Origin: a virus
IMG/VR virus record: IMGVR_UViG_3300030116_001845
Coordinates: 1 to 20,031 of that record
Strand: one strand, 5' to 3'
Length of the DNA stretch: 20,031 nucleotides
Numbering within the stretch: position 1 is the stretch's first letter; every line of letters begins with the position of its first letter. The notes under the pieces were generated by a model. That model did not search any database and was not told the origin of the DNA. It saw only the letters and a program-made list of their open reading frames with translations. The position numbers and the translations under genes were made by a program. This document shows, in pieces, positions 3,800 to 20,031 of the stretch.

Positions 3800-3803
3800 G
3801 ATC

Positions 3804-4941: not shown

Positions 4942-4962
4942 TGTATTAGATAGGAGAAACGT

Positions 4963-5370
4963 ATGGCAGCACAAAAAGGAGCAGCATTACTGCTCAAGAT
5001 AAACACCACAGGTAGCACCTATGTTACTGTAGGTGGTCTACGCTCTACCTCCATTACCCTCAACGATGAAGCTGTTGACGTTACTAACAAGGATTCCTCT
5101 GGGAATCGTACTCTGTTAGCTGACGGCGGTATTCACTCTATATCTGTTTCAGGTAGCGGAGTGTTCACAGACGCAGCATCAGAGACTACTTTGAAAGATG
5201 CGATGAATGCAACCACTTTTAAGAACTTCCAAATCATTATACCTGACTTTGGAACGTATCAAGGTGCCTTCATGGTAGCATCATTAGAGTATGCTGGAGA
5301 GTTCAATGGAGAAGTTACATATTCTGTAACACTTGAGTCATCTGGCGCTATCACATTCACAGGCGCGTAA
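4963..5370 (+). CDS. Major tail tube protein (TP901-1 / phage_tail_2 family)
   Basis: A 135-residue protein recognised as a tail tube subunit. It begins AQKGAALLLKI, has the characteristic VDVTNKDSSGNRTLLADGG (about residues 38-56), and continues with SISVSGSGVFTDAASE and a C-terminal GEFNGEVTYSVTLESSG. These are family signatures of the TP901-1-type and gene-transfer-agent tube proteins, which polymerise into the hollow tube that conducts DNA. The start at ATG 4963 has a clear ribosome site, AGGAGA, around 4952-4957. The length and place after the tail terminator fit. No sheath gene follows, which argues for a non-contractile tail. Confidence 0.9.
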   Translation: MAAQKGAALLLKINTTGSTYVTVGGLRSTSITLNDEAVDVTNKDSSGNRTLLADGGIHSISVSGSGVFTDAASETTLKDAMNATTFKNFQIIIPDFGTYQGAFMVASLEYAGEFNGEVTYSVTLESSGAITFTGA

Positions 5371-5371
5371 T

Positions 5372-5632
5372 ATGGCTTGGGATGAGGCTAAAATCAAATT
5401 AGGCCAAGAAGAGCTTGACGGCATGGTCAATGGCGATCTTGTCAATTGTCCTATGCCTGAAGCTGGTATGGACGATGTACACAAGGTAAGCGTTGATGGC
5501 AAAAGCTATGAGATAGGAGCGTGGCAGATTGATATAAGGGACAATTTATTAACCATAGTTCTCGCAATGGCGGGGGCTAAAGAAAAGGAGGTGTCAGATG
5601 ACCAACCCGCTAAAGGGCGAAGTAACACTTAA
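5372..5632 (+). CDS. Small hypothetical protein between tail tube and chaperone genes
   Basis: An 86-residue protein from ATG 5372, 1 nt after the tail tube stop. The frame extends upstream to a TTG at 5333, but that would overlap the tail tube gene with no ribosome site, so I prefer the ATG. The sequence starts MAWDEAKIKLGQEELDG, has a central IGAWQIDIRDNLLTIVLAMAG and a polar tail. No signal peptide or known motif is recognised. Its last 35 nt overlap the next gene, and the ribosome site of that gene lies inside its coding sequence. The position suggests a tail assembly helper, but I cannot assign a function. Confidence 0.6.
   Translation: MAWDEAKIKLGQEELDGMVNGDLVNCPMPEAGMDDVHKVSVDGKSYEIGAWQIDIRDNLLTIVLAMAGAKEKEVSDDQPAKGRSNT
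5585..5592 (+). promoter_or_regulatory. Ribosome binding site for the tail assembly chaperone
   Basis: AAGGAGGT at 5585-5592 lies 5 nt before ATG 5598, inside the 3' end of the preceding small gene. It fixes the chaperone start and indicates strong independent initiation, as expected for a protein needed in excess during tail assembly. Confidence 0.8.
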
Positions 5633-5954
5633 TATTGGTGGTACTGAATATAACGCTCGTTTAACTGTGGACGCAATCATGCAGATAGAAACATCTGTAG
5701 GATGCGGCATATTGAAACTCGCACAACGTATGAGCGAGGCTGATATTCGCGTGAGCGATATCATACAAGTGTTGACACCAGCGCTGAGGGGCGGTGGTAA
5801 AGACATAAAACCAAAAGATGTAAGTAAAATTATATCTGAAGTCGGCATCGTTGAAGCGACAACAGCTGTTGCAAATCTACTCACTATGGCAATTTCGCCA
5901 CAAGATGACTCAATGGAGGATTCAGAGGGAACGCCCGAAAAAAAGGAATCCTAG
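5598..5954 (+). CDS. Tail assembly chaperone, frame-0 product (GTA gp10 / TAC_11-like)
   Basis: A 118-residue protein resembling the gene-transfer-agent gp10 family (Phage_TAC_11). Its opening (NPLKGEVTLNIGGTEYNARLTVDAIMQIE) fits the family pattern of short beta strands, then a helix starting with an Ala/Ile-x-x-E-x-x-x-G, followed by GILKLAQRM and a helical Leu/Ala-rich half (ADIRVSDIIQVLTPALRGGG). It sits just upstream of the tape measure gene, the standard place for tail assembly chaperones, which coat the tape measure protein before tube polymerisation. The frame-0 reading ends EKKES-stop. The two Lys codons form a slippery heptamer, so a fraction of ribosomes should continue into the next frame (separate entries). 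Confidence 0.8.
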   Translation: MTNPLKGEVTLNIGGTEYNARLTVDAIMQIETSVGCGILKLAQRMSEADIRVSDIIQVLTPALRGGGKDIKPKDVSKIISEVGIVEATTAVANLLTMAISPQDDSMEDSEGTPEKKES

Positions 5955-6011
5955 TAGATGACAGGTTGCCCATCAAAAGATTCTACGAGGTATGTGTTGG
6001 CATGATGGGTA
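5939..6011 (+). promoter_or_regulatory. -1 programmed frameshift signal: slippery heptamer plus candidate pseudoknot
   Basis: Frame-0 codons of the chaperone read ...GAA AAA AAG GAA TCC TAG. The heptamer A AAA AAG at 5939-5945 is in exact X XXY YYZ phase and is the classic efficient bacterial slip site. Four nt downstream, 5950-5958 (CCTAGTAGA) can pair with 5982-5990 (TCTACGAGG) in 8 of 9 positions (one A-G mismatch). The loop segment 5967-5975 (TGCCCATCA) can pair with 6003-6011 (TGATGGGTA) in 9 positions, one of them G-U. Together these make an H-type pseudoknot with linkers of 8, 6 and 12 nt. A -1 slip enters an open frame that runs to 6157. Pairing was worked out by hand; no folding energy was computed. 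Confidence 0.8.
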
Positions 6012-6157
6012 TGCAGCCAACAGAATTTTGGAATTGTAGCCCTATAGAGGTTTACAACGCCATTGAGGGATTCAGAGAGTTCAACAGCTCGGACAATAAC
6101 CGTCCGATGTCAAAAGACGAATTATCTGATCTGATGGAGATGTACCCCGATGGCTAA
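5945..6157 (+). CDS. Tail assembly chaperone, -1 frame extension (TAC_6 / GTA gp10.1-like)
   Basis: In the -1 frame, after the slip at 5945, translation continues GILVDDRLPIKRF... for 70 residues to a TAA at 6155-6157. This gives a fusion of about 186 residues with the upstream chaperone. The segment RFYEVCVGMMGMQPTEFWNCSP matches the second chaperone family of gene-transfer-agent-type phages, whose hallmark is a W/F..G...L.L.P..FW..TP pattern. This domain is usually the one that contacts the tape measure or tube subunits. No ATG or GTG start with a ribosome site exists for this frame; the only internal option is TTG 5966. A lambda gpG/gpGT-style fusion is therefore more likely than a separate gene. 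The end overlaps the tape measure start (ATG 6150) by 8 nt. Confidence 0.75.
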   Translation, partial: GILVDDRLPIKRFYEVCVGMMGMQPTEFWNCSPIEVYNAIEGFREFNSSDNNRPMSKDELSDLMEMYPDG

Positions 6158-8240
6158 GACGATTGATGAGTTAGTAGTTGAGATACGCGCAGAAACAGCT
6201 GGACTGCGTAAGGGACTAGACTCACTAAACACCAAACTCAACCGCAGTAATACGATTGCAAAAAGATCTATCGTATCGTTTGGTGGCTTAGCCAAAGCAT
6301 TTGCTGCTGTGGGCGCAGTTAGACTTGGTGCTGGTATCGTAAATACAGCCAGGTCGTTTGAAGATTTAGGCGCTACGATGAGGGCTGTAACAGGCTCTAC
6401 TCAGAATGCCAACAAAGCTATGTCTGTGATTACAGACTTCACAGCAGGCACACCTTTCCAGTTGCAAGAAGTGACTGGCGCATTCATAAAATTCTATCAA
6501 GCTGGTATCACACCATCAGCAGAAAATCTGACTGCCTTTGGTAATCTTGCTGCAGGTATGGGTAAAGACATTGAGACTTTAGCCCAAGCAGTGTTCAACG
6601 CCACTACTGGCGAGATGGAAATGCTCAAGCAGTTTGGTATCAAAGCCAAACAGATGGGCGATGAAGTTGAGCTGACGTTTGAAGGTCAAACGGTCACAGT
6701 AGACAAAACTCGTGAAGCCATAGCGGAATATGTCAGAAGCATCGGAGCGGAGCGATTCCCTACAGCGCTAGCGGAGCGGTTAGCTACACTCTCAGGATCG
6801 TTTTCTAACTTGCAAGATACTGCTGCTATATTTGCTAATCAGATAGGTGAAGCGGGACTGACAGGAGCGCTGACAAGGCTTGCAGGGACTTTACAAGGAA
6901 CAATCAACGCTGCAGGTGATGAAGGATTGGCGACAACCCTGGGGTCAAGCCTAGGCACTGCGGTAGATAAAATCAGCGGTGCAATAGAATATTTGAACAC
7001 AAACTTTGAGGACGTGATGGCCACACTCAAAGCTCTTGGTGTTGTTATCGTCACTGTCGCTACAGTAAACATACTGGCCACCTTTGTCGGCTCACTAACC
7101 GTATTGGCTACAACGATCACGGCAACGGTCATACCAGCTATCGTTAGTGCAACTACGGCGATGTATGCCTTTGCAGCAGCGATGGCAGTAAATCCAATTA
7201 CTTACATCGTCTTAGCGTTAGCAGGTCTCGTGGCGATAGGCGTGGCTATCTATAACAATTTTGACGAGCTACGAGTGTTCTTCAAAAATCTGTTTACAGT
7301 GCATATTCCGAATTTTATTGATAAAGGTTTGATTGCCTTCAATGAGTTCAAAATAGATCTTATAGTGGTTTTGAATGACCTACTCGCCAAAGCACAAATA
7401 AAAATCAATGAGCTGATACGTCTATATAACGAGATTCCTTTTTTAGATGACGCAGAACCCGTAAGGCTAGAGCTTGATACTGGCCCTGCGACAGACAAAA
7501 TAAACGAGCTAAACGCAGCCATAGATGCACGTATCCTGCAATTAGAAACTTATACTAAGAAGTCAGCAGAAGCCGTAGAAGCTGTAGTTGTTAACGCTCC
7601 GGTAGCGCCTACGACTGGCAATGCAGGAACACCAGAAAGCGGTGGTTCAATTGTCCCACCAGCTCCAGAGGTAAACGAAACCACTGATGCTGTGATGACG
7701 CTAGAAGAAGCGATGCAAGACATGAGATCCACTCTTATAGAGAGTACACATGCCTTCTCTCAAGATTTCGTCAAGGGATTGTTAGATGGTCAAGATGCCT
7801 TAGCTAGTTTCAAAGACTTTGCCAAGAACATGGTATCTCAAATCATTGCAACGTTTTTGCAGTTAGCAGTCGTTAATCAAATTCTAAATTCTATATTTGG
7901 TCTCTCCGGGACATCGGCCTTACCAACAATCGGCAGCTTAGGCGGTAAAGCAGGCGGTGGCAAATTGCAAAAAGGTAGAGCCATGCTAGTCGGCGAGAGA
8001 GGCCCAGAAATTTTTGTACCAGATACATCAGGCACTTTGCGAAACAACATGGACTCTATGAACATGGGCGGTAGTCCAGTCGTTATCAATCAGAGCCTGA
8101 ACTTTTCAACAGGTGTTGTACCTACGGTAAGGGCAGAGATCACTAAGATGCTGCCACAAATTAACGACATGACTAAAGCTGCGGTGCTAGAGGCATCCGC
8201 TAGAGGAGGTTCATACAGGAAAGGGTTACTAGGATCATGA
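6150..8240 (+). CDS. Tape measure protein
   Basis: A 696-residue tail length determinant. Residues 1-70 contain a coiled-coil start and a Gly/Ala-rich hydrophobic stretch. Around residues 92-185 is the tape measure N-terminal family signature: FTAGTPFQLQEV, IKFYQAGI, NLAAGMGKDIETLAQAVFNA and GEMEMLKQFGIKAK. Residues about 287-372 are strongly hydrophobic, as is usual for proteins that are ejected and may line the DNA path through the inner membrane. The C-terminal GRAMLVGERGPEIFVP (about residues 609-624) is a typical tape measure ending motif. At the usual 1.5 angstrom per residue the tail would be roughly 100 nm long; this is an estimate from family behaviour. ATG 6150 overlaps the chaperone extension, and the stop overlaps the next start (ATGA, 8237-8240). 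Confidence 0.9.
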   Translation: MAKTIDELVVEIRAETAGLRKGLDSLNTKLNRSNTIAKRSIVSFGGLAKAFAAVGAVRLGAGIVNTARSFEDLGATMRAVTGSTQNANKAMSVITDFTAGTPFQLQEVTGAFIKFYQAGITPSAENLTAFGNLAAGMGKDIETLAQAVFNATTGEMEMLKQFGIKAKQMGDEVELTFEGQTVTVDKTREAIAEYVRSIGAERFPTALAERLATLSGSFSNLQDTAAIFANQIGEAGLTGALTRLAGTLQGTINAAGDEGLATTLGSSLGTAVDKISGAIEYLNTNFEDVMATLKALGVVIVTVATVNILATFVGSLTVLATTITATVIPAIVSATTAMYAFAAAMAVNPITYIVLALAGLVAIGVAIYNNFDELRVFFKNLFTVHIPNFIDKGLIAFNEFKIDLIVVLNDLLAKAQIKINELIRLYNEIPFLDDAEPVRLELDTGPATDKINELNAAIDARILQLETYTKKSAEAVEAVVVNAPVAPTTGNAGTPESGGSIVPPAPEVNETTDAVMTLEEAMQDMRSTLIESTHAFSQDFVKGLLDGQDALASFKDFAKNMVSQIIATFLQLAVVNQILNSIFGLSGTSALPTIGSLGGKAGGGKLQKGRAMLVGERGPEIFVPDTSGTLRNNMDSMNMGGSPVVINQSLNFSTGVVPTVRAEITKMLPQINDMTKAAVLEASARGGSYRKGLLGS

Positions 8241-9100
8241 GTAGAATTATTACGATGCCATCAGCTCCAAACTTCAACAGGAGCGAATTTGAATTGTTTA
8301 GAGCAATAGGCCAAACAGTTTCGCCGTTCACAGGTAAGCAGCGCACTCAAGAGTTTGACGCAGTTTACTGGATGGGGACGATGACGTTGCCGCCAATGAA
8401 ACGAGAACAGGCAAGAAACTGGCAGAGCTTTTTGATGCAGCTAAAAGGCACCACAAATACTTTTGCGATGGGTGATCCTGATGCCCTATCACCACAAGGA
8501 ACCTACAACGGCAACAATTTCACTGGATCAGCGCAAGTCAATACAGGCTCCTCTGCGGTTTCTATTGCTATCAGCGGCGCAAATGTAACGAGATCAGGTG
8601 CTTTTGCTAACGCTTTTGCAGGCAGCTTCATACATATAACGGGTGCTGCTAATGACGGAAACAACGGGACACACAAGGTAGCGTCTAAGACAAATAACAA
8701 TACTGTGGTGTTAGATACAACGTTTTCTCCTGACCTTACAAACGAAACATTCAACGGCAAGATTAAGCAAAATGTTAAAGGTGCAGAAGCCCTTAACCTA
8801 GTGAGGACGGGCAGCGGCAGCGGGACTGTAAAGAAAGGGGATTATTTAGGTGTACTATCAGCAAACTCTGCAACAGCAGCTCCGAAACAGTTGGTATTGG
8901 CGGTGGAAGATGCTGTAGTCAGTGGCACTCAATACTCCATACAAACAGAGCCGAAGCTACGCAACGATCTAACAGATGGCTTTTTTGTAACCTATAGCGC
9001 ACCGAGGGGATTGTTCCGATTACAAGATAACACAGTTACGTGGTCTGCGAATCAAGTCTCTACCTACGGTATTTCATTTGCGGTGCAGGAGGTTGTATAG
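8237..9100 (+). CDS. Distal-tail/minor tail protein
   Basis: A 287-residue protein directly after the tape measure, where siphophages encode the distal tail ring protein. The N-terminal part contains SPFTGKQRTQEFDAVYWMGTMTLPPMKREQARNW (given here only as the shape of residues about 30-63: beta strand, then the LPPM turn and a helix), followed by FAMGDPDA. This LPPM...A..W..FL..L.G....F..GDPD pattern recurs in minor tail proteins of marine and Pseudomonas siphophages. An insertion from about residues 90-175 is Gly/Asn/Thr-rich and looks like an added beta domain, possibly carbohydrate-binding. The C-terminal strands (YGISFAVQEVV) are typical of tail ring proteins. Role inferred mainly from position and the conserved N-terminal half. 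Confidence 0.65.
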   Translation: MSRIITMPSAPNFNRSEFELFRAIGQTVSPFTGKQRTQEFDAVYWMGTMTLPPMKREQARNWQSFLMQLKGTTNTFAMGDPDALSPQGTYNGNNFTGSAQVNTGSSAVSIAISGANVTRSGAFANAFAGSFIHITGAANDGNNGTHKVASKTNNNTVVLDTTFSPDLTNETFNGKIKQNVKGAEALNLVRTGSGSGTVKKGDYLGVLSANSATAAPKQLVLAVEDAVVSGTQYSIQTEPKLRNDLTDGFFVTYSAPRGLFRLQDNTVTWSANQVSTYGISFAVQEVV

Positions 9101-9745
9101 ATGGCAACCCGTCCTGGAATAGATACTGCTATAGCAAATAGGCTAGCAGCAGACCACCAGAATACCTTTTTCGCTATCAAAGCAGAATTTGATACATCAG
9201 ATATATTGCTGTGGACTGGCACAGATGACCTTGTTATCAACTCAGAAACGTATACCGGGGCTGGCAGTCTTATAAATATAAGCAACGTTGAGGACTCTAT
9301 AGAGTTAAAAAGTAGCGGCCTCATGGTTACGATCTCTGGCATGGATGCAACAGTGCTTGATTATGCGCTCACAGAAAATTATCAAAATCGGTTCATAAGT
9401 CTTTTCATGGGATTCCTAATGGGCGGTTCTAACGAGGTAGCGGGAATACTCACATTATTCAAGGGACGTATGACTAACCTTACGATCAACGACACCGCAG
9501 ATGGTGCAACTATTTCTGTAAATGCAGAAAACAGGCTTGTTGATCTAAAGCGCCCTTGCAACTTGCGGTATACCAAGAACAGTCAGAAGTTCGTAGATAG
9601 TAACGATACTGGCTTTAATCGTGTCAACTCAATACAAGACATGGAGATCATCTGGGGCAGAGAAGGTAACACAGGAAGTGCAGCTAGAGTCACAGGCGGT
9701 GGTACCGATGGATTCAACCACAATATAAGGTTTGACCGCAGATAA
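9101..9745 (+). CDS. Tail hub protein, DUF2163 / phiJL001 gp84-like
   Basis: A 214-residue protein with the layout of DUF2163 proteins, which form part of the baseplate hub in gene-transfer-agent-like tails. Visible markers are the opening (FFAIKAEFDTSDILLWTG, about residues 23-40), the strand pattern with YTGAGSLINISNVEDSIELKSSG, the segment GILTLFKGRMTNLTI, and a Cys followed by LRYTKNSQKF near residue 153. The family usually has several Cys in the C-terminal half; only C153 stands out here, so metal binding is doubtful. It abuts the previous gene (TAG then ATG) and overlaps the next by 1 nt. Its place between the distal tail gene and the NlpC-like gene is exactly that of the transfer-agent cluster. 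Confidence 0.75.
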   Translation: MATRPGIDTAIANRLAADHQNTFFAIKAEFDTSDILLWTGTDDLVINSETYTGAGSLINISNVEDSIELKSSGLMVTISGMDATVLDYALTENYQNRFISLFMGFLMGGSNEVAGILTLFKGRMTNLTINDTADGATISVNAENRLVDLKRPCNLRYTKNSQKFVDSNDTGFNRVNSIQDMEIIWGREGNTGSAARVTGGGTDGFNHNIRFDRR

Positions 9746-10164
9746 TGAAGAAAAAGAGCGATTGGCAAGTTCTACTGATTGAGTTCATAGAAGAACATAA
9801 AGACACACCCTTTGAATGGGGTAAGTGGGATTGTTGTATTTTTGCTAATGCGGCTCTTAAAGCTATATCGGGTAAGAACGTCATACCAAAAGACCTCAAA
9901 TGGAAAGACGAAAAAACCGCTATGAAAGCCATAAAAGACTATGGCAAAACCCTCAACGGCGCACTGACCAAAGCATGTAAAGGTGCAGGGATGGAAACTA
10001 TACAACCTGCTTTTGCCACAGCAGGCGATCTTATTTTATTCAAAGAAGAAAGCGAGCTGGCTGGTATTCATGATGGATTTAATATATTAGCTCCAACAGA
10101 TGATGGCATAACTACTAAAGATCCATCTCTAACCATCAAGGCATGGAGGGTGCCTCGTGGCTAA
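9745..10164 (+). CDS. NlpC/P60-like tail-tip protein (DUF6950-type)
   Basis: A 139-residue protein with the short papain-like layout of tail-associated cell-wall peptidases. It has an N-terminal helix, then FEWGKWDCCIFA (residues 23-34) with candidate nucleophile C30, followed by GDLILFKEE (residues 94-102) and a candidate histidine H109 in GIHDG. The WG..DC..FA start is the hallmark of the DUF6950/NlpC-like tail proteins, which sit between the hub and tip genes and are thought to open peptidoglycan during DNA entry. No third catalytic residue is obvious and C31 makes the choice of nucleophile uncertain, so activity is inferred. The gene overlaps its neighbours by 1 nt and 8 nt. Confidence 0.7.
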   Translation: MKKKSDWQVLLIEFIEEHKDTPFEWGKWDCCIFANAALKAISGKNVIPKDLKWKDEKTAMKAIKDYGKTLNGALTKACKGAGMETIQPAFATAGDLILFKEESELAGIHDGFNILAPTDDGITTKDPSLTIKAWRVPRG

Positions 10165-13100
10165 GGCCATTAAAGCAGCGGTGGTCGCTGCACTTGTAGT
10201 TTTTGTAGTTGCAACTACGGGCGGTGTAGGGGCTGCTGCGTTTAGTGCATTTGGTTTGACAGGTGCTGCTGCGATGGCAGCGGTCACGTTTGCTACTACG
10301 TTGATTTCGTCTGGCCTTTCTATGCTGACTTCAAAAGGTATAGAGGCAAACAATAAAAACTTTGGTACAAAAGTCACCTCCAGAAATGCTACAGCGCCAA
10401 GGCAGATTGTATATGGCGAGACCATTGTTGGTGGCACGATTGTACACATGCAAACGTCAGGCACTGACAATCACCTATTACACATGGTCGCCATTGTCGC
10501 TGGTCATGAAATACAGAGCTTAGAAGCACTCAGAATAAACGGTAAAAATGTAGTCATTGGTAGCAACACAACCACATCAACTATTGGTGGCAAGCAAGTA
10601 TTTAATGTCAATCTGGCATCGTTTAAGAATTCAGATAATGATAATAAGTTAGATAGTGGCGGTACGTTAATTAGGTTTTCATTCAACAACGGATCACAGA
10701 CCACAGCAGATGGTTTTCTGCGTAATCAGCTAAGTGGTTCTATACCGTCTACCCATGTCTACAAAGACTGTGCCTACGTGTATGTGCAGATGGTATACGA
10801 CACAGAAAAGCTGCCACAGCCACCTACAATTACTTTTAAGGTCAAAGGCAAAAAGTGCTTTGATCCTAGGACAAACGCCACAGCATTTACCTCTAACCCT
10901 GCACTATGTATACGCGATTATCTCAGTAACACCACATACGGACTCAAAGCCGAATCTGCAGAATTGAATGACAGTACCTCAGCAGGCGGTTTTGCCTCAG
11001 CAGCTAACACATGCGATCAAGACGTCACCCTAGCTGACAACTCAAGCACCGAGGACAGGTATACCGCAAACGGATTCACAGACATGTCTGCCTCTCCCGA
11101 TGGTGTGTTAGAGGGCTTATTGTCCTCATGTGCCGGTAAACTTACATACGTCAATGGCAAATTCAGTCTGTTCGTAGGAGCTGCACAAACACCTTCTCTG
11201 ACGATCACTGATGATAAGTTGCTTGCACCCGCACAGGTGAGTACTCGGCCTAACAATGGCGAGCTGTACAACACAGTCAAACCTATATATGTAGACGCAT
11301 CTCAGAACTACACAGGGACTGACGGGGCTGTAATACAGGACGCAACATTTTTATCCGCAGACACGCCTAGTGGCGAAAGCTCTGCAAACTATGTCAAGCA
11401 ACAAGAAATACAGCTGCCGTATACTACGACAGCAACGATGGCAGATAGGCTAGCTAAGATAGCTCTGCGACACGGTAGACAGAGTGTAGCGTTGTCATTA
11501 GTTACAACAATAGAGTTTTTGAAGCTACAGCCTGGAGATTGGGTCTATGTCACTAACGAGAGACTAGGGTATACCAACAAAGTCTTTGAGGTCATCTCTA
11601 CAAATATGGAGATGGTTGGTGATGAAACACCAGCTGCAGCAACAAAATTAGAGTTGAAAGAAAACAATAGCTCTGTATTCAACCACGTTTTTAACGAATA
11701 CAGCACTATCCCAGATGAAGGGTCAGACGTTTCCGATGACTCCAGAACGCCAGCAGCTCCCACTAATCTGAGTGCAACCACGATTAGTTTTAATGTCTAC
11801 GTAGTCAACCAAAAAATCATACGAGCTAATTGGACTAACTCAACGTCAGAGCTGGTGACAGGCACAGAGCTTTCCTACAAGCTCACGTCAGATAGCGATT
11901 ACACATTACAGCCAATGATACCTAAGGGCGTGGCTGTAGGCTTCATACCCAATGTGCAGACAGGTCAGCAATATGATGTGCGTGTGAGGCACCTCAACAT
12001 ACATGGCATCTATAGCTCTTATGCCACTGTACAGCACACAGTATCGGGGTCAGCACAATCTAACACAGACTTACAAAACGATGCCATTAGCATTGACAGC
12101 TCTAGCGGGGAGATCAGTGGCATTGGTACAGGCAACAATTCCAGAATTTTTAATGACATCATAGACATAGATCTTGCTACTAGTGGGTCAAATATAGGCA
12201 GAGTGACCATCGGTGGTATCGGTGGCAGTAACAACTTCATAGACGTCACTAAGTCTAATCTAGCTCTGGACTACTTTGATGGCGCAAACAAAACGGAGTT
12301 TGATAGCCTAACAACACAAGATGGCAAGATAGGCATTAAGAACAACAATGCCTCTAGCTTCACCTTGCTAGAGCCGTTCACATCAGCAGAGCTAACTAAG
12401 CTGGTAAACCTACGAGCAGGCACAGCGCCTGATGATGCAAACGTTAGCATAAAGAATGATGGCATCACTATCAACTCAAGTACTGGGGTTATAGGTGGCA
12501 TTGGTACGGGTTCAGGTTCCCGTGTATTCAACGATGTCATTGGTATAGCACTTGATACAACCACTAACGTAGGTCGTGTGTCCATATCTGGTATTGGTTC
12601 GTCAAACACGTTTGTAGATGTGACAAAAGGCAACCTAGGTTTGCTATACGATGATGGAGCGACTGTCGGCGCTAGATTAGGCGTTAATCTGAGTGACAGC
12701 GGAGGCACTGCTCTTAGTGATGAAGACGTAAGAAACAGCGATCTCTCTTTAGCGTATAGCGGCACTAGCCTGCAAATAAAAAAAGGCAGCACCCAAATCG
12801 GGTCAAACCTACCCGCTGCAAATGGACTGGTGAACAGTCGTATTCAGATGAATACAAACGGCAGCTTGAACTACAACAACAATGGTTCGGGCAACCCTAC
12901 CATGAACACGTTAACGGATGGTGGCAACATACGATCTAGGCTGACAGCAGGTCTAAATTCCTCTGGTGATGTCATTAGGACTGTAAGCAAAAGTGTTGGT
13001 GGATTCGGTCAAGACGTATCTGCTGCTACAGGTATACCAGATTTCACAAGTGGGACACTTAATATTAGAACCACTGTGCCACCCGCAAGAGGTGGTTTTG

Positions 13101-13936
13101 GTATAGATGTAGCAAGCACATTTGGAACCAGTGCAGGTATTTTGCCTAGATGGAATGGCTCATCATTTGAAAATCTAGCCGAGGGCGGTCTTCTTAATAG
13201 CGGTATTACTATCAACAACGATGGTGAAATATCAGGTATCGGTACAGGCTCTGGAACCTTTGTAGATAACAGCCTTACTGGGAACAGTCGCACCCTTACA
13301 ATTAACTCAAGTTCTGCAGCGTATAACTCAGCCAGAGGGCTACCAAATGGATCAGACACTACTGGTAAAAGCTATCTGATAGGTACCACGGGACTGCCTA
13401 CCTATGGAAGCGCAACTTATGATTCGGGTCACAAAGTTGCGCCCTCAGCCTTCTTCATTGAGTCGGTGCAATCGGGTGGATACAACAAGATTACACTCAA
13501 GAATTTCCAATTTGGTGTGACTGGTAATGTCACATTTACATCCTCTGGTAAGGGCAGCACAGGCGGCAACCTGTTGATCTATGTGTCTGCAGGTATTAGT
13601 AGTAGCTCATCCTCATACAACCAAGTCACAAACGGCGACATAGGCGAGGTCTTAGCCCTCAGTCAATTCAGCACAGCAACTACATTTACCGGGGGGTTCA
13701 GTGTCCTAGTCAACGAGCTAGAAATTAATGTGCCGCAAGCGTCTCAAACTGTAACAGGTACGCTGTGGCTATGGTGTGAGCTATTTGTGTCAAGCGTTAC
13801 GGCAGTATCTAGCACACCAAAAATACAGCTTGTGGATAGGACAGATTCGCAAATAATACTGGGTAGAACAACCGGGGGCGCACAGACAGGCAACTATAGT
13901 CACTCTACCAGTACTCATAGTATTGCGAGGAGTTAA
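10157..13936 (+). CDS. Tail tip / host specificity protein (lambda J / GTA gp15-like)
   Basis: A 1259-residue protein, the largest in the window, that would form the central tip and contact the host. It starts at GTG 10157, 6 nt after GGAGGG (10145-10150), overlapping the previous stop. Residues 4-60 are a hydrophobic Ala/Val-rich helix pair, common at the N-terminus of J-like proteins. Residues about 78-125 carry the family signature RQIVYGETIVGGTIV followed by LHMVAIVAGHEI and LRINGK. The middle (about 220-510) has the hub-type beta structure, and about residues 535-635 resemble a fibronectin-like segment (AAPTNLSATTI, then QYDVRVRHLN). The C-terminal half is Gly/Ser/Asn-rich with three related repeats (separate entry) and ends in beta-rich sequence, likely the receptor-facing region. 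Confidence 0.85.
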   Translation: MAKAIKAAVVAALVVFVVATTGGVGAAAFSAFGLTGAAAMAAVTFATTLISSGLSMLTSKGIEANNKNFGTKVTSRNATAPRQIVYGETIVGGTIVHMQTSGTDNHLLHMVAIVAGHEIQSLEALRINGKNVVIGSNTTTSTIGGKQVFNVNLASFKNSDNDNKLDSGGTLIRFSFNNGSQTTADGFLRNQLSGSIPSTHVYKDCAYVYVQMVYDTEKLPQPPTITFKVKGKKCFDPRTNATAFTSNPALCIRDYLSNTTYGLKAESAELNDSTSAGGFASAANTCDQDVTLADNSSTEDRYTANGFTDMSASPDGVLEGLLSSCAGKLTYVNGKFSLFVGAAQTPSLTITDDKLLAPAQVSTRPNNGELYNTVKPIYVDASQNYTGTDGAVIQDATFLSADTPSGESSANYVKQQEIQLPYTTTATMADRLAKIALRHGRQSVALSLVTTIEFLKLQPGDWVYVTNERLGYTNKVFEVISTNMEMVGDETPAAATKLELKENNSSVFNHVFNEYSTIPDEGSDVSDDSRTPAAPTNLSATTISFNVYVVNQKIIRANWTNSTSELVTGTELSYKLTSDSDYTLQPMIPKGVAVGFIPNVQTGQQYDVRVRHLNIHGIYSSYATVQHTVSGSAQSNTDLQNDAISIDSSSGEISGIGTGNNSRIFNDIIDIDLATSGSNIGRVTIGGIGGSNNFIDVTKSNLALDYFDGANKTEFDSLTTQDGKIGIKNNNASSFTLLEPFTSAELTKLVNLRAGTAPDDANVSIKNDGITINSSTGVIGGIGTGSGSRVFNDVIGIALDTTTNVGRVSISGIGSSNTFVDVTKGNLGLLYDDGATVGARLGVNLSDSGGTALSDEDVRNSDLSLAYSGTSLQIKKGSTQIGSNLPAANGLVNSRIQMNTNGSLNYNNNGSGNPTMNTLTDGGNIRSRLTAGLNSSGDVIRTVSKSVGGFGQDVSAATGIPDFTSGTLNIRTTVPPARGGFGIDVASTFGTSAGILPRWNGSSFENLAEGGLLNSGITINNDGEISGIGTGSGTFVDNSLTGNSRTLTINSSSAAYNSARGLPNGSDTTGKSYLIGTTGLPTYGSATYDSGHKVAPSAFFIESVQSGGYNKITLKNFQFGVTGNVTFTSSGKGSTGGNLLIYVSAGISSSSSSYNQVTNGDIGEVLALSQFSTATTFTGGFSVLVNELEINVPQASQTVTGTLWLWCELFVSSVTAVSSTPKIQLVDRTDSQIILGRTTGGAQTGNYSHSTSTHSIARS
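12077..13272 (+). repeat. Three diverged internal repeats in the tail tip gene
   Basis: Repeat 1 (about 12077-12268) and repeat 2 (about 12454-12648) share the protein pattern I-x-I-[DN]-S-S-[ST]-G-x-I-x-G-I-G-T-G, then R-[IV]-F-N-D-[IV]-I and G-R-V-[ST]-I-x-G-I-G, ending F-[IV]-D-V-T-K. Repeat 3 (about 13184-13272) keeps only the first part (ITINNDGEISGIGTGSG). They look like fibre modules embedded in the C-terminal half of the tip protein. Confidence 0.7.
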
Positions 13937-13938
13937 TT

Positions 13939-14169
13939 ATGCCCATGAATCCTGAAGACATTAAAAACAAAGGCTGGTTAGTCAAGCGATTGGCTGCCTA
14001 TGAAACAATGTCCGAGGGTGAGTTTAGAGACATGACTATCGGGCTGCTCAACGTCCTCGTGTCAGAATTACTAGAAAATGCTACAATAGAACCGAGCAAG
14101 TTCCGCAGAGAGGATCTTGAAAGACTGGCGATGATACTGAGTATCAAGACCGATAACCCAAAAGACTAG
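13939..14169 (+). CDS. Small helical hypothetical protein
   Basis: A 76-residue protein starting at ATG 13939 behind GAGGAGT (13927-13933). It is almost entirely helical and amphipathic (WLVKRLAAYETMSEGEF, IGLLNVLVSELLEN) with no membrane segment, signal or known motif. It lies between the tail tip gene and a tiny basic gene, the region where accessory tail-tip or late genes are usually found. Function not recognised. Confidence 0.6.
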   Translation: MPMNPEDIKNKGWLVKRLAAYETMSEGEFRDMTIGLLNVLVSELLENATIEPSKFRREDLERLAMILSIKTDNPKD

Positions 14170-14174
14170 GAGGA
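14168..14174 (+). promoter_or_regulatory. Ribosome binding site for the 40-residue basic protein
   Basis: AGGAGGA at 14168-14174 lies 4 nt before ATG 14179 and overlaps the stop codon of the upstream gene. It is the main evidence that the very short downstream frame is a real gene. Confidence 0.75.
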
Positions 14175-14178
14175 AGAT

Positions 14179-14301
14179 ATGCCATACGGAGCGCACCAAG
14201 GCGGCAAAAAGCCTGAAAAAGGAATGCAGAAAAAGCCTGGAAAGAAGCTGGCTGGAACTGCATACGGCAAACCAGAGAAGCCAATGAAACCTAGAAAATG
14301 A
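14179..14301 (+). CDS. Tiny lysine/proline/glycine-rich basic protein (40 residues)
   Basis: ATG 14179 to TGA 14301 encodes 40 residues, of which 11 are Lys and 1 is Arg, with Pro, Gly and Tyr making up much of the rest (MPYGAHQGGKKPEKG, ending KPMKPRK). It has a strong ribosome site, and its stop overlaps the next start (ATGA at 14298-14301), both signs of a translated gene. It must be disordered in isolation and, given its charge, may bind nucleic acid or membrane phospholipid. No family is recognised. Confidence 0.65.
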   Translation: MPYGAHQGGKKPEKGMQKKPGKKLAGTAYGKPEKPMKPRK

Positions 14302-14849
14302 GCGATAAGCTCTTACGAGTACATGGCACTACCACTAACTTAACCTTTGGTCAGTTGCATGAGAGCCAATTTCCTGTTGTTGCTAAGGCAATGGGCAGAT
14401 CTTTGGCGCAATTTCATGGCCTTGTAAAAGCAAATGGGTGGCGTGTACATGCTGCAATAAGGACAACGGACAACAAACTTGTCTGTGTTTTTGTAGTAGC
14501 ACTGCCTGAATTAAGAGGCAAGGAAGGTGATGCCTGGGAGCTGACCGATACACAAAACAACAATCTAAGATCTAACCTATCCGAGTTCACTGTAGAATTT
14601 GTTTGGACACCAGAGGATGAGCGCAACAAGGGATATTTCAAAGAGTTTTCTATCGGCGTAAACGAAAATTTATTTACCACAACGCCATTACAAAAAATCA
14701 CAGCAGTCAAGATTGACAAGGACGCAGCAGGATACGACTACGTTAAGAAGCGTACATCCACTGCGAATCACACAGAATTAGGCACAGACGAATACGGGTT
14801 TGAGCTTAGTGAGCTGACTAAGGAGCAATGGACAACAGATAATACTTGA
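14298..14849 (+). CDS. Hypothetical protein after the tail tip genes
   Basis: A 183-residue soluble protein starting in the ATGA overlap with the tiny basic gene. It has mixed alpha/beta character: an N-terminal helix with FPVVAKAMGRSLAQF, then strands WRVHAAIRTTDNKLVCVFVVALPE (roughly residues 48-71), a central FTVEFVWTPEDERN and a polar C-terminal tail. No signal peptide, membrane segment or catalytic motif is evident, and I do not recognise a family. It is coupled to its neighbours and probably belongs to the late operon. Confidence 0.6.
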   Translation: MSDKLLRVHGTTTNLTFGQLHESQFPVVAKAMGRSLAQFHGLVKANGWRVHAAIRTTDNKLVCVFVVALPELRGKEGDAWELTDTQNNNLRSNLSEFTVEFVWTPEDERNKGYFKEFSIGVNENLFTTTPLQKITAVKIDKDAAGYDYVKKRTSTANHTELGTDEYGFELSELTKEQWTTDNT

Positions 14850-14850
14850 G

Positions 14851-15198
14851 ATGGATTTTATAGCGTTAATTACTGAGGTAGGATTCCCTATCGCCGCAGC
14901 CGTTGGGCTAGGTATGTTTGTGTGGAAACTTATCAACAGAATCATTGATGGTATGGAATCTAAGATTGATGTCTTAGACGAAAAAGTTGCAGCTCAAGTC
15001 GCTGAGATGGAGAAGCGATTAGACACAAAACTTGACGCACAGATGGGAATTTTAGTCTCTCTAATAGACAGAGTAAGATCTGTTGACAATGAGATAATTA
15101 GACAAGATACCATGATTAAGACTATACTAGGGGTTCCCCATTTGATGCAGTCAGACAGACTGGCTAAAGCAGACAGGGACGATCAGAGAAAAGACTAA
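14851..15198 (+). CDS. Membrane-anchored coiled-coil protein, candidate holin
   Basis: A 115-residue protein with one N-terminal membrane segment (about residues 4-28: IALITEVGFPIAAAVGLGMFVW) followed by a long charged helix with heptad spacing (residues 33-85: ESKIDVLDEKVAAQVAEMEKR). A short membrane anchor with a cytoplasmic coiled coil recalls BhlA/UviB-type holin-like proteins. The position after the tail genes is where lysis genes often lie. No endolysin is visible nearby, so lysis is an inference. It starts 1 nt after the previous stop, and its TAA overlaps the ATG of the csgF-like gene, so it is translationally linked to the curli-type cluster. A role in that cluster cannot be excluded. 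Confidence 0.55.
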   Translation: MDFIALITEVGFPIAAAVGLGMFVWKLINRIIDGMESKIDVLDEKVAAQVAEMEKRLDTKLDAQMGILVSLIDRVRSVDNEIIRQDTMIKTILGVPHLMQSDRLAKADRDDQRKD

Positions 15199-15722
15199 TG
15201 GCGAAGAGAGGCAGACCTAGTAAGAAACAGCTAGAGCAAATTAAGAAAGATAAAGAGAAAACTCTTATCATCAAAATACTATTGGCTATCGGAGCCTTAC
15301 TGTTCATTGGCATTTTCGCGCAGAATGCGATGGCAGATCAGATGGTATATAAATTCAAGTCTCCATCATTTAGTGGTATCAACCAATCAAGCCACTACCT
15401 CACAATAGAAAATCAAGAATTCAATCGCAAGAAAGCGATCAAAGAAGAGATCAAGGCGTATAGAGAACAGCTCAAGCGAGATGAAGAGAATACGACCTTG
15501 GCTAGGTTCTTACGTAACCTAGAGTCTCGCATATATGCACAACTATCGCGCCAGTTGGTAGATCAGTTGTTCGGAGAGAACCCCCAGACTGAGGGCATTC
15601 TTGAACTACTGGGTAACACGATTAGCTACATCGTGGAGGGTGATATGATTACCCTTACCATAACCGATAGTGAAGGCAATGTCACAACGATCTCTTTACC
15701 GCTGGGTTCATTCACGTTTTAG
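15198..15722 (+). CDS. csgF: CsgF-like curli assembly protein
   Basis: A 174-residue protein. In Escherichia coli, CsgF inserts its N-terminus into the CsgG channel and couples export to nucleation of the amyloid fibre at the cell surface. Here residues 23-40 are a hydrophobic signal core with cleavage expected after AMA (residue 46). The mature protein then begins DQMVYKFKSPSFSG (47-60), the counterpart of the E. coli TFQFRNPNFGG segment that binds the pore. A helical region follows (about 97-128, LARFLRNLESRIYAQLSRQLVDQL cut here for length) and a C-terminal beta part (GDMITLTITDSEGN) similar to the family end. Unusually, about 22 basic residues precede the signal core, starting MAKRGRPSKK. 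The 3' end overlaps the next gene. Confidence 0.85.
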   Translation: MAKRGRPSKKQLEQIKKDKEKTLIIKILLAIGALLFIGIFAQNAMADQMVYKFKSPSFSGINQSSHYLTIENQEFNRKKAIKEEIKAYREQLKRDEENTTLARFLRNLESRIYAQLSRQLVDQLFGENPQTEGILELLGNTISYIVEGDMITLTITDSEGNVTTISLPLGSFTF

Positions 15723-16521
15723 TAAAGCCATAGTCGCAGTAGGAGCCTTGCTCCTCAACGGTTGTGCGCTAATGTTTGATCCATTAGATAACAACCTCCC
15801 TCCTATCAAACACATAGAAGCATCCGAGATAGCACCTATCGTTATTCAGGAGCTAGCGGATGTAGGTAAGCCAAAGCAAAGGCCCACAGTCGCAGTTTAC
15901 CCCGATGCCTTTACCGATCAGACAGGCGCTAGGCTCTCTAACGGGCAGTATGCGAGTTTTTCTACAGCCATAACACAAGCACCCTACCTGTACCTAGTAC
16001 GGGCCTTACATCGCGCTGGAGAGACGCATGGAGGGTTCTTCAATGTCGTTGAGCGCATAGGGCTTGATAACCTAACTAAAGAGAGACAACTTATTAGAAA
16101 TACGCGCCAACAGTTTGAAGAAGAACAAGAATTGATGCCCCTAAAGTTCGCAGGTTTGTTAATAAGGGGAAGTGTGGTAGGATATGAAAGTAACGTTTCG
16201 TCAGGAGGCGCAGGTGCGAGGTTCCTGGGGTTGGGTAACTCCAGAGAATACCGGGAAGATGAAGTAATAGTCTCTCTCCGCATTATATCTGTATCTACGG
16301 GTAGCGTATTGTTGGAAGTCCTTGTGACTAAGACGATACTATCAGCGTCAATTTCACAAGATGTATTCCGCTTCATAACGCAGGGAACAGAGCTTGTGGA
16401 GATTGAAGGGGGACTGGTAAGAAACGAATCAGTCAACCTAGCACTACAAGCTGCTATAGAAACTGCGGTATTGCAGCTCATACAGGAAGGCTCCAACAAG
16501 GGATTTTGGAGTATGGAATGA
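15679..16521 (+). CDS. csgG: CsgG-like curli export pore lipoprotein
   Basis: A 280-residue protein if ATG 15679 is used; GTG 15670 in frame is an alternative. A lipoprotein signal ends LLLNGC with lipidated Cys29. CsgG forms a nine-subunit outer-membrane channel for unfolded curlin. Matches to the family are dense: VAVYPDAFTDQTG (71-83), FSTAI (94-98), the helix LVRAL (106-110), VVERIGLDNLTKERQLIR (123-140), GSVVGYESNVSSGGAGAR (164-181), which starts the membrane hairpin, VSLRIISVSTG (198-208), SKTIL-type VTKTIL (216-221), and FRF followed by AIETAVLQLIQEG. Length is close to the E. coli protein (277 with signal). The signal-peptide codons lie inside the end of csgF. Asn55 and Tyr51 of the E. 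coli constriction are not kept (see findings). Confidence 0.93.
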   Translation: MSQRSLYRWVHSRFSKAIVAVGALLLNGCALMFDPLDNNLPPIKHIEASEIAPIVIQELADVGKPKQRPTVAVYPDAFTDQTGARLSNGQYASFSTAITQAPYLYLVRALHRAGETHGGFFNVVERIGLDNLTKERQLIRNTRQQFEEEQELMPLKFAGLLIRGSVVGYESNVSSGGAGARFLGLGNSREYREDEVIVSLRIISVSTGSVLLEVLVTKTILSASISQDVFRFITQGTELVEIEGGLVRNESVNLALQAAIETAVLQLIQEGSNKGFWSME

Positions 16522-17234
16522 TGAGACGTTTAATAATTATCCTGGCGTGTGGATGTTTTCCACTGTCTGTTTACAGCGCAGACAATGAGATCTATATAGA
16601 TCAAGTTGGCGCTACCCTCAACCTTGATGCCGAGCAGCTAGGTAATAGCAATATTATCGGAGGCCTGAATGCCGCTGCAGGCAACATGACACCACTAGAT
16701 CTTGACGGTCTGAATCTTACTATTGACATCAACCAGATTGGTAATTCAAACCAATTTTTGGGCGATATTAACGGAGATAATATTACTTGGGATTCTACCT
16801 TTGATGGAGATTCCAATGTCTTTAAGATCCAGGTAGACCCTACAAATACCTATGGTGCTGACTCTGGTAACTACAATATTGATGTAACAGGCAGCAGTAA
16901 TACCTTTGATCTCAATGTAGGTACGTCAGCATTGTCTGACACCTTGGATCTGGACTGGACGATCATGGGAGACAGCAATGACTTAGACTTTGACATCAAC
17001 TACGAGACAGGCACTTCCTACGTAGACATAGATGGCGACTCAAATACAGTAGATTTTACAGGGTCAGGGAAAGACCAAGGCTATTTCTACTTAGATCAAA
17101 CAGGAGACAGCAGGACGTTCAACATACAACAGAAGAGTACGTTAGTAAGTGATTGGCTTAAGATTATCACTAGCGGTAATGGTGGTACTGTGTGTATCGT
17201 TCAAGACGATAACGGCACCGCTACAGGCTGCTGA
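16518..17234 (+). CDS. Secreted curlin-repeat protein (CsgA/CsgB-like)
   Basis: A 238-residue protein from ATG 16518, which overlaps the csgG stop (ATGA); an ATG at 16521 is also possible. Residues 2-21 form a signal peptide (RRLIIILACGCF core), with cleavage expected near YSA-DNE. The mature part is a run of curlin-type strand-turn-strand units with the core Q-x-G-x-S-N: DQVG (28-31), EQLGNSN (39-45), NQIGNSN (72-78), and Asp-shifted versions DGDSN (96-100), TGSSN (124-128), GDSN (151-154), DGDSN (172-176) and QTGDSR (194-199). It is rich in Asp and poor in basic residues, and ends in a segment with Cys226 and terminal Cys238. It is the expected substrate of the adjacent pore. Whether it is a fibre subunit or a nucleator cannot be told. 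FecR-gene codons overlap its 3' end. Confidence 0.85.
   Translation: MMRRLIIILACGCFPLSVYSADNEIYIDQVGATLNLDAEQLGNSNIIGGLNAAAGNMTPLDLDGLNLTIDINQIGNSNQFLGDINGDNITWDSTFDGDSNVFKIQVDPTNTYGADSGNYNIDVTGSSNTFDLNVGTSALSDTLDLDWTIMGDSNDLDFDINYETGTSYVDIDGDSNTVDFTGSGKDQGYFYLDQTGDSRTFNIQQKSTLVSDWLKIITSGNGGTVCIVQDDNGTATGC
16590..17126 (+). repeat. Curlin-type repeat array
   Basis: Around seven to eight diverged units of about 20-30 residues, each with a G-[NDS]-S-N turn flanked by alternating hydrophobic/polar strands (for example LTIDINQIGNSN, YVDIDGDSN). The first units keep the canonical Gln before the turn; later units have Asp, Thr or Met there. The units are recognisable in protein but poorly conserved in DNA, so they are old rather than recently duplicated. 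Confidence 0.75.
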
Positions 17235-18276
17235 GGATATCGGAGAAGTATCGGAGCTGCGTGGCTCTGCGCGGATCTATCGGGAAGAACCCATAGAGGC
17301 CCTCCTAGAGGTGCCTATACAGCCCTTAGACGATGTTAGAACCAGCAAGGGTAGGTTAGCCATAACGTTCTTAGATGAGACCATAGTGCGTCTTACAGAG
17401 CATTCTAAGCTGATTGTGGATGAATACATCTACTCCAGCAATCCCAGCAACTCTAAACTAGCTATCAACTTTGCCCAAGGCACTGCGCGATTCGTCACAG
17501 GCAAACTAGGGCGCATAGACAAACGCAACATCAAGCTCCGCACACCCTCCGCAGACATAGCTATTCGGGGTACGTCCCTGGCAATCACCGTGACAGAGCT
17601 TGGATCTAGCCTGATTATGCTGCTGCCAGACCCCATAACGGGGTTATCTAGTGGCGAGATTCTAGTATCTACGGCGATGGGAGAGGTGCTGCTCAATAAG
17701 CCATTTGAAGCCACCACTGTAGAAGTCTTTGAAACCACCCCATCTGCACCTGTTATTTTGGATCTAACCCTTGAGCTGATAGACAATATGCTGATTGTCA
17801 GTCCACCAAAGGTCTCGGAGGATTACGCACAGACCGAAAACGCCATACAAGCAGCCGATGACTACCTAGCCTTTGAAGACCTGGACATAGACCTGCTGGC
17901 AGAGGACTTCCTAGATAATGAAGCTGACCTAGACTTTACAGAGCTGGATATAAACTACTTAGATGTGAACTTTTTAGAGGATCTGCTTGAGATCATAGAC
18001 AAGCTAGGTGACATAGAAGAAGAAGACCAGCTAGATCAGGTAGCCACATCCGTAGCAATCAAAGGCACTAAGCTAGGACAAGATGCAGAGACAGGCATCA
18101 TAACCATTGTAGATCAACAGCGTGTCTCGCTCAGAAGACAGGTGGAGGACAGCATACGCTTGGACATAGATGCTGGCGGTAGCTATACAGTCATCTTTAT
18201 ACAAAACGGAATCAGTAGGACGGTCACTGTTAATGGAGGGGGTAGCAGCACCATTCGCATTACCCAAGGGCAATGA
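17149..18276 (+). CDS. Secreted FecR-domain protein
   Basis: A 375-residue protein starting at GTG 17149 (or ATG 17179), 86 nt inside the curlin gene. The overlap encodes a signal peptide (hydrophobic core about residues 5-17, cleavage near LQA-AED at 27), which is why I keep the long start. Residues about 33-150 are a FecR domain: VRTSKGRLAITFLDETIVRLTE, a strand LAINFAQGTARFVTG and the family end motif KLRTPSADIAIRGTSLAI. FecR domains sense periplasmic signals, but the anti-sigma helix and membrane anchor of classical FecR are absent. Residues about 236-294 are a very acidic Leu/Asp-rich stretch, followed by a second beta-rich domain (297-375, SVAIKGTKLG). The stop overlaps the cyclase start (ATGA). 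A sensor partner for the cyclase is the simplest reading. Confidence 0.8.
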   Translation: MIGLRLSLAVMVVLCVSFKTITAPLQAAEDIGEVSELRGSARIYREEPIEALLEVPIQPLDDVRTSKGRLAITFLDETIVRLTEHSKLIVDEYIYSSNPSNSKLAINFAQGTARFVTGKLGRIDKRNIKLRTPSADIAIRGTSLAITVTELGSSLIMLLPDPITGLSSGEILVSTAMGEVLLNKPFEATTVEVFETTPSAPVILDLTLELIDNMLIVSPPKVSEDYAQTENAIQAADDYLAFEDLDIDLLAEDFLDNEADLDFTELDINYLDVNFLEDLLEIIDKLGDIEEEDQLDQVATSVAIKGTKLGQDAETGIITIVDQQRVSLRRQVEDSIRLDIDAGGSYTVIFIQNGISRTVTVNGGGSSTIRITQGQ

Positions 18277-20031
18277 AAAAGATTGTACTGCTCATCATTG
18301 CTGCGCTTGCACTGCCTCTAATTTATCAGGTCAACATCGTAGAGATTATCAAGCTCAGGACGTTTGACGCTTTCATAGAGCCAGTAGAAGAGACTGGCAA
18401 CATTGTTCTACTCAACATCACTGACAAAGATCTACAGGAGTATGGGCAGTGGCCCTGGTCAAGAGAGCAGCTTGGCCTGATACATGTAGATCTACTGAAT
18501 GCAGGAGCTACCTCAGTAAGCTGGGTGGTGTCATTCCCGGAGCCAGATAGGTTTGGTAAAGATGAAGTCTTTGCAGAGGCACTATCCTACTACCCCAGTG
18601 TGCTGGCTATGTTTGAGACAGACACCTGGAACGACATACCCGCAACAGAAGGCACCGTCATATTAGGTGATGAGGTTGGTGGTATAGAAGCGCAAGGGGT
18701 CTTGCAGAACATACCAGCGCTAAGAGACCAAGCATTGCAAGGCATCGTATCAGCCCCGGTAGACGTGGATAACCTGCTACGCAGAATGCCTCTGCTCATG
18801 CGTAGCCCCGATGGTTGGCTTGCAGCGTTTGCCACACAGATGCTCAAGGCAGTCACAGGCACCAATACCTATGTCATCAAGACCAATGAATTAGGCATAG
18901 AAGAGATACGAGTCAAACAGTTAAACCCAATACCTACGGATCAATACGGCAGAGTCTGGATTAACTGGAGTGTTCCACATGGAACATCCTTAGAGGCTAT
19001 GGACGTAGAAGGCAAAATGGTAGTGGTCAACCTTAAAGCGAAAGGTATCCTGCCCATGACAGCTACGCCTGTAGGATTATTAACACCTGCAGAGATCCAA
19101 GCAGCGGTAGCAGAGACGATCATACACGCTTCATCACAGCCGATGCCTGGAATACCAGCGAACAGCCTATTGTATGAATTGCTAATATTTGCAGCAGGAA
19201 CATTAGCAGTATTTATAATGGTAAATCACCTAGGCTTATATCTTGGTCTAGGATTATCACTAGCATCTATGTTAGCAGTCGGTGGTGGTGGTGTGTTTCT
19301 CATCAAGTCGGGCGCATTGATTGATGTAACCTGGACGCTCATATCACAGTTTGTAACCGCCTCCAGCAGCTTCTATATAAGGTTCCGGGAACAGTACAAG
19401 CTGCGCCAACAAATACGCGATCAGTTTGGCACTTACATCTCGCCAGAGTACGTGGACATCATCATCAAGAATCCAGATCTGATGGTCTTAGGTGGACAGA
19501 ATAAAACCATGTCATACCTCTTTAGCGACATAGTGGGCTTTACCCCCATCTCTGAAATGTATATGAAGAACGATGACCCTGAAGGCCTGGTCAGTCTCAT
19601 CAATCATTTCCTAGATGAGATGACCAAAGTGGTGATCGGTAATGGCATGACCCTAGATAAATATATGGGTGACTGCATTATGGCGTGGGCAGGAGCGCCG
19701 ATACCCAGAGAAGACCATGCAATCGTTACAGTTAAGACAGCTATAGAGCTAGAGCTACTATGTCAAAAACTCAATCAAGATCTTAAAGACCAAGGGCTAG
19801 ATCTACCACCAGTGATGTTTGGCTCTGGAATCTCTACAGGGCCAAGTATTGTAGGTAACACCGGGTCATCTATGAGAATGAATTACTCTGTGATCGGTGA
19901 TGCAGTAAATCTAGGCGCAAGGTTAGAGGGAGAAACGAGAAAGCAGGATACCCCAATATTGCTGCCCCAAGCCACCTATGATCTCATACAAAACGAGATA
20001 GCCTGTGTGTATGTAGATAAGATAAAGGTTA
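18273..20031 (+). CDS. CHASE2-domain class III adenylate/guanylate cyclase (3' end outside window)
   Basis: ATG 18273 overlaps the FecR stop; 586 residues are visible and the frame is still open at the end. Layout: a membrane segment (4-19), an extracytoplasmic CHASE2 domain (about 25-290) with LRTFDAF and GQWPWSR (58-64), three membrane segments (about 299-368), a linker (FGTYISPEYV), then a class III cyclase domain. Metal-binding aspartates are D419 (FSDIVGF) and D467 (DKYMGD); K463 fits the purine-contacting Lys; N546 and R550 (GDAVNLGAR) are the transition-state pair. The second purine-specifying position, Asp in class IIIa and Thr in IIIb, is Ser539 (NYSVIGD), which suggests class IIIb and probably cAMP synthesis. 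It is likely to turn an envelope signal, perhaps via the FecR protein, into a cytoplasmic messenger. Confidence 0.9.
   Translation, partial: MKKIVLLIIAALALPLIYQVNIVEIIKLRTFDAFIEPVEETGNIVLLNITDKDLQEYGQWPWSREQLGLIHVDLLNAGATSVSWVVSFPEPDRFGKDEVFAEALSYYPSVLAMFETDTWNDIPATEGTVILGDEVGGIEAQGVLQNIPALRDQALQGIVSAPVDVDNLLRRMPLLMRSPDGWLAAFATQMLKAVTGTNTYVIKTNELGIEEIRVKQLNPIPTDQYGRVWINWSVPHGTSLEAMDVEGKMVVVNLKAKGILPMTATPVGLLTPAEIQAAVAETIIHASSQPMPGIPANSLLYELLIFAAGTLAVFIMVNHLGLYLGLGLSLASMLAVGGGGVFLIKSGALIDVTWTLISQFVTASSSFYIRFREQYKLRQQIRDQFGTYISPEYVDIIIKNPDLMVLGGQNKTMSYLFSDIVGFTPISEMYMKNDDPEGLVSLINHFLDEMTKVVIGNGMTLDKYMGDCIMAWAGAPIPREDHAIVTVKTAIELELLCQKLNQDLKDQGLDLPPVMFGSGISTGPSIVGNTGSSMRMNYSVIGDAVNLGARLEGETRKQDTPILLPQATYDLIQNEIACVYVDKIKV

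Follow-up and report, generated by a model that had tools for sequence, protein, structure and literature searches.

A curli-type gene set between the tail and lysis genes of marine siphophages as a putative late secretion cassette

Why would a phage carry genes of the curli (type VIII) secretion pathway directly behind its tail genes, and what would their product do for the infection? The question is raised by IMG/VR record IMGVR_UViG_3300030116_001845, which was analysed as a whole (20,031 bases; hereafter the window). An earlier note, made from the sequence alone, had described there a phage late operon in which CsgF, CsgG, a curlin-repeat protein and a secreted FecR protein are linked to a siphovirus-type tail. 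All four genes were located where that note had placed them (Table 1), and profile matches together with gene order support the reading as a late operon of this composition.

Table 1. Features of the window, with coordinates, strand and the evidence for each assignment.
Feature	Coordinates	Strand	Evidence
Siphovirus head-tail connector and tail genes	3137..9100	+	PHROGs matches
Tail protein, small conserved tail-region gene, central fibre J	9101..13936	+	phrog_2048, phrog_2134 (the small conserved tail-region gene), phrog_5616/phrog_31
Two small conserved genes (76 and 183 aa), J-to-module interval	13939..14849	+	97% and 92% identical in sibling contig L004
115-aa single-TM coiled-coil protein	14851..15198	+	phrog_18771
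CsgF	15198..15722	+	PF10614 1.1e-20, phrog_35372
CsgG outer-membrane pore lipoprotein	15670..16521	+	PF03783 2.1e-45
Curlin-like secreted beta-solenoid protein	16506..17234	+	Family Curlin_rpt matches, GxSN repeats, AlphaFold2
Secreted FecR-domain protein	17149..18276	+	PF04773 4.8e-10, phrog_37870
CHASE2 membrane adenylate-cyclase-like protein	18273..20030	+	PF05226 2.1e-30, PF00211 6.2e-14

The first of these blocks holds the adaptor, head closure, neck, tail terminator, major tail protein, tape measure and neighbouring genes, and the tail upstream of the module is of the long non-contractile, lambda/HK97 type according to PHROGs. Pfam and PHROG searches with the two small genes behind J gave no match. 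At 14179-14301, a 40-aa lysine/glycine-rich reading frame (MPYGAHQGGKKPEKGMQKKPGKKLAG...) overlaps the next gene at an ATGA and has a purine-rich stretch resembling a ribosome-binding site. The module itself is an overlapping train (TAATG at 15196-15200; csgF/csgG, 53 nt; curlin/fecR, 86 nt; fecR/cyclase, ATGA), and CsgF, CsgG, FecR and the cyclase each also match a PHROG family of unknown function. Scans for promoters and terminators returned signals no more often than in shuffled sequence.

The phage origin of the locus was assessed with a sibling contig from another metagenome (L004, also L006; 36,622 bases, ~36.6 kb), where the same run of tail genes, J, two small genes and the module ends in a cyclase that is complete at 609 aa, the window copy running off the end of the record. 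Identities to the window were 92% for CsgG, 89% for FecR and 89% for the cyclase. A chimera near position 15198, which the earlier note had named as one way of being wrong, is ruled out because the junction recurs in this independent contig. The second, bacterial chromosomal genes beyond the cyclase, is ruled out as well, since the sibling contig continues there into lysis genes (an Rz-type spanin, an overlapping Rz1-type lipoprotein, a nuclease and a lysozyme). Its other half carries terminase, portal, protease and HK97-type capsid genes, the head genes whose confirmation the note had proposed. Of the siphovirus features, tape measure, tail terminator, major tail protein and J are seen in the window and the HK97-type head in its sibling. 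A search of nine related contigs (36-54 kb) for tyrosine integrases came back empty, which fits a virulent phage, and the window probably derives from a virulent marine siphophage. Relatives of J, TerL and the major capsid protein disagree on a possible host. All module genes are under purifying selection when compared with the sibling contig (dN/dS 0.03-0.08, estimated with unsaturated dS only). In the same comparison, dS was 0.75-0.78 in csgF and csgG (15198-16518) and mostly at least 1.4 in most neighbours, with the lowest value, 0.18 on few sites, in the first 23 csgF codons; recombination or an overlapping signal could account for this.

With regard to the secretion proteins, the adaptor and the lipoprotein pore of a type VIII system are both present. 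CsgF matches PF10614 over residues 33-168, and its alignment shows a signal sequence and a 23-aa basic N-terminal extension; a comparison with solved structures gave only spurious ubiquitin matches. The CsgG family profile aligns to the solved CsgG 3x2r at 8e-62, and a lipobox-like LNGC is seen in the sequence. CsgE (PF10627) was not found in 10 curli-phage records, which are possibly fragments, and was recovered in the E. coli control.

The putative substrate has a signal peptide and a C-terminal cysteine pair. Curlin_rpt is matched by 7 of 19 family members (best 8.6e-6), the window copy being without a Pfam match. That copy nevertheless holds six G-x-S-N turns against 0.22 expected from shuffles (none of 20,000 reached six), and AlphaFold2 models it as an all-beta solenoid (pLDDT 81). 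The nearest structures by VIA-align were the SufB/SufD beta-helices (Z 17.1, rmsd 3.5, 198 residues), a likeness that denotes a generic beta-helix and says nothing of function. Foldseek found nothing at E<=0.001, the VIA-align matches listed include no CsgA chain, and we claim no match to the CsgA fold. Across the family, length, signal peptide and turns are kept. HTVC008M encodes a second curlin-like protein (L002:10555-11880) in which, by eye, an N-terminal PA14-like domain appears to precede the curlin repeats.

Upstream of csgF lies a gene that had been described as a membrane protein bridging the module to the tail. It does adjoin both, but it is more than a bridge, being the constant upstream partner of csgF and consisting of one transmembrane segment and a coiled coil. 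Among 50,697 phage records its relatives occur only in HTVC008M and Melnitz, in each just 5' of csgF, and none was found in 337 alphaproteobacterial genomes, where phage-bearing assemblies served as a positive control and did give a signal. Judged from these searches, the protein seems restricted to curli phages, and such a phage-specific gene ahead of csgF is new as far as we have checked. It is probably the 'histidine kinase' of an earlier description, in which one or two genes so named precede the module (PMC9599517), given its position, size and tandem copies; the Pfam families listed for 27 proteins of this family include neither HisKA nor HATPase. Within the main group, conservation is strong in the C-terminal half (KLDSQHGILVALIDRVRSLDNEIIRQDT), and the distribution of charges suggests that the protein is anchored in the inner membrane with its coiled coil in the cytoplasm. 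An assignment as holin was rejected, as the PHROG holin matches are weak (E 0.014-0.017), no Pfam holin matches and the gene tracks csgF.

The two genes at the other end of the module encode FecR and the cyclase. In the FecR model the FecR domain is resolved and the C-terminal half is of low confidence; this N-terminal domain is common to many alphaproteobacterial proteins, whose matches mostly end near profile position 202 of 371. All 24 FecR members end in an [IV]x[IV]xQ motif, which had prompted the idea of a curlin-like nucleator at the C-terminus; HHalign against the curlin family gave a probability of 0.8%, and the idea was dropped. The cyclase retains D419, K463, D467, N546 and R550, conserved in the phage family, which we take to be the metal, base-recognition and transition-state residues of class III adenylyl cyclases. 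This apparently intact catalytic site would suit a module devoted to host signalling, where FecR and the CHASE2-cyclase raise cAMP and the curli genes merely ride along. The cyclase, however, went undetected in 12 of the 32 loci that have fecR and lysozyme, and the curli genes persist there, so that we regard host signalling as the least probable of the readings weighed here. The retention of fecR in loci where the cyclase was not detected also indicates that FecR is not only the cyclase's partner.

The curli gene set itself is already known from other marine phages. A CsgF-CsgG-CsgA/B-FecR-cyclase module has been described in pelagiphage podo- and myoviruses, including HTVC023P-type podoviruses (Wittmers 2022, PMC9599517), curli genes are known in pelagimyophages (Zaragoza-Solas 2020, PMC7029224) and in methylophage Melnitz (Buchholz 2022, PMC9004378), and csgG is reported to be frequent in seawater phages (PMC11309003; PMC7003362). 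The suggestion that the linkage with FecR and a cyclase may be undescribed therefore has to be withdrawn, as Wittmers 2022 reports it and both HTVC008M and Melnitz carry it. The other half of that suggestion, linkage with a long non-contractile tail, holds so far: a search of the open-access literature turned up no siphovirus described with the set. The pelagiphage modules (HTVC008M) have the same order of small membrane gene(s), CsgF, CsgG, curlin, FecR and cyclase, whereas here a siphophage lineage carries the set, with one curlin gene, between J and the lysis cassette (CsgG 44% identical to that of HTVC008M). Melnitz shares the order, its csgF-csgG pair preceded by two small membrane genes and followed by curlin, FecR, curlin and cyclase, but is a myovirus with CsgG 37% identical, a second curlin and no lysis cassette annotated in the stretch read. 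Alphaproteobacterial curli operons (L092, L140-L143) share csgF-csgG adjoining curlin genes; a similarity search did not find FecR, cyclase or the 1-TM coiled-coil gene adjacent to them. Modules of this group also without CsgE have been reported (PMC9599517). The E. coli csgBAC-csgDEFG system shares the CsgG and CsgF families, CsgG being related by sequence to the solved pore; compared with it, CsgE was not found here, CsgC and CsgD were not seen among the annotated genes, and FecR and the cyclase are added.

A profile scan of viral contigs showed that at least 585 encode CsgG relatives, of which the best 80 were mapped. Gene order in these loci is nearly constant (in most, 1-TM coiled-coil gene, csgF, csgG, curlin, fecR, cyclase), and lysis genes follow in contigs long enough to include them, provided that their sequences are close enough for detection. 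The module order of Wittmers 2022 is that of the window, HTVC008M and Melnitz, and with near constancy that of the 80 further loci mapped. Several phage types are carriers: besides the J lineage there are contigs encoding an internal virion protein of phrog_511, others with a structural protein of phrog_3287, and the podovirus-like L093 (phrog_38 terminase, phrog_1216 portal). In the CsgG tree, the J-lineage label has to change at least six times across branches with strong support, which indicates that versions of the module moved between phage lineages; the placement of bacterial sequences, on long branches, is unsure. Scanning genome contigs returned mostly phage-type modules in MAG contigs. 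Those labelled Maricaulis, Neomarinimicrobiota, Synechococcus and Pelagibacter (L087-L090, L093) appear to be phage sequence that was binned with bacterial genomes.

The constancy of the set was surveyed in loci chosen by J and not by the curli set. The set was present in 15 of the 17 siphophage loci showing both J and downstream lysis genes, in a sample that lies near the curli phages, since the J profile was built from their J proteins and the best 80 of 170 loci were kept, and that contains a few near-duplicates or repeats of contigs already mapped. In the two exceptions every curli gene is missing even by family HMM, and a different secreted set fills the same J-to-lysis interval (L176:13277-18588; L188:7816-13681). 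Two proteins of this second set are secreted, one of 371 aa with an N/T/S-rich tract of 167 residues and one of 744 aa; a 119-aa protein with one TM segment and a coiled coil and, often, a 67-aa lipoprotein complete the set, in which no pore homologue was recognised. The 744-aa protein was found in at least 115 viral contigs, and many of the best 80 loci (L223-L302) adjoin lysis genes; it has no Pfam family above threshold and is absent from the 50,697 phage records. Measured on partial contigs, the two sets are mutually exclusive: csgG occurs in none of the 80 best loci of the 744-aa protein (of at least 115 contigs), and the 744-aa protein in none of 84 csgG loci. As far as we have checked, the near-constancy in a siphophage lineage and the alternative set in the same slot are new, and the N/T-rich set is undescribed.

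This slot bears on the proposal, made for Melnitz (PMC9004378), that the CsgG/CsgF pore is a lysis device that permeabilises or depolarises the envelope and times lysis, with curlin and FecR as accessories. The location would agree, as the module stands directly between the tail and the spanin/lysozyme genes in the siphophages and beside them in L093, and a small 1-TM protein precedes it. A spanin pair, a lysozyme and holin candidates are nevertheless present independently of the module, and a full lysis cassette without it exists. The proposal also leaves without explanation the conserved and selected curlin and FecR, as well as a replacement set that has no recognised pore homologue, and we consider it unlikely. 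A related suggestion is that an open CsgG channel admits large solutes into the infected cell (PMC7029224, PMC9599517), and the missing CsgE gate in the ten records noted above would agree with a channel left open. Uptake accounts neither for the conservation of CsgF and curlin nor for the replacement set, and expression late in infection, if it is late, allows little time to profit from nutrients, which makes it a very improbable main function.

Our preferred reading, which we hold at a probability of roughly 60%, is a late-operon type VIII secretion cassette that exports a curlin fibre onto the infected cell before lysis. Late in infection, a timing that we infer from operon position, the CsgG pore and the CsgF plug/adaptor would be placed in the host outer membrane. 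The curlin-like beta-solenoid would be exported, presumably by this pore, and may polymerise as a surface fibre. FecR and the CHASE2-cyclase may sense the envelope and signal through cAMP, and the products of the spanin/lysozyme genes just downstream would then open the cell. Several observations count for this: purifying selection acts on CsgF, CsgG and curlin, whose genes overlap in a single train; curlin, its length, signal peptide and turns kept, accompanies the pore almost throughout the mapped loci (the best 80 of at least 585); and the 17 J-selected loci that show the whole J-to-lysis interval carry either this set (15) or another secreted one (two), next to a lysis cassette that can be complete without it. 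The second secreted set in the same slot argues that selection acts on the extracellular product and not on the pore; likening it to the curli set is by analogy, and the two may be counterparts. Counted against the fibre are the failure to find CsgE, the window curlin without a Pfam match, and the finding that clumping was not seen in Melnitz infections (Buchholz 2022, PMC9004378). The benefit of a fibre could be the clumping of neighbouring cells or the stopping of re-adsorption to infected cells and debris, which are the two leading options. The earlier note had set a surface fibre beside a pore that leaks or imports solutes; either may apply, and the comparison of loci speaks more for a secreted fibre than for a bare leak pore.

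More broadly, at somewhat less than even odds, a large marine siphophage lineage may always carry a surface-polymer cassette in its tail-lysis slot, as one of two mutually exclusive and unrelated secreted sets, either the curli-type set, exchanged between phage lineages, or the undescribed N/T-rich set. So far, phage curli genes have been regarded as auxiliary genes that turn up occasionally, chiefly in SAR11 phages. If the broader statement is true, the formation of an extracellular fibre ahead of lysis would belong to the core functions of a phage and not to its optional auxiliary ones. The same phage backbone with two different sets offers a clean comparison for the polymer's role, and the near-constancy, the fixed slot, the exchange between lineages and the existence of a second set suggest that a late extracellular polymer may be a general strategy of ocean phages.
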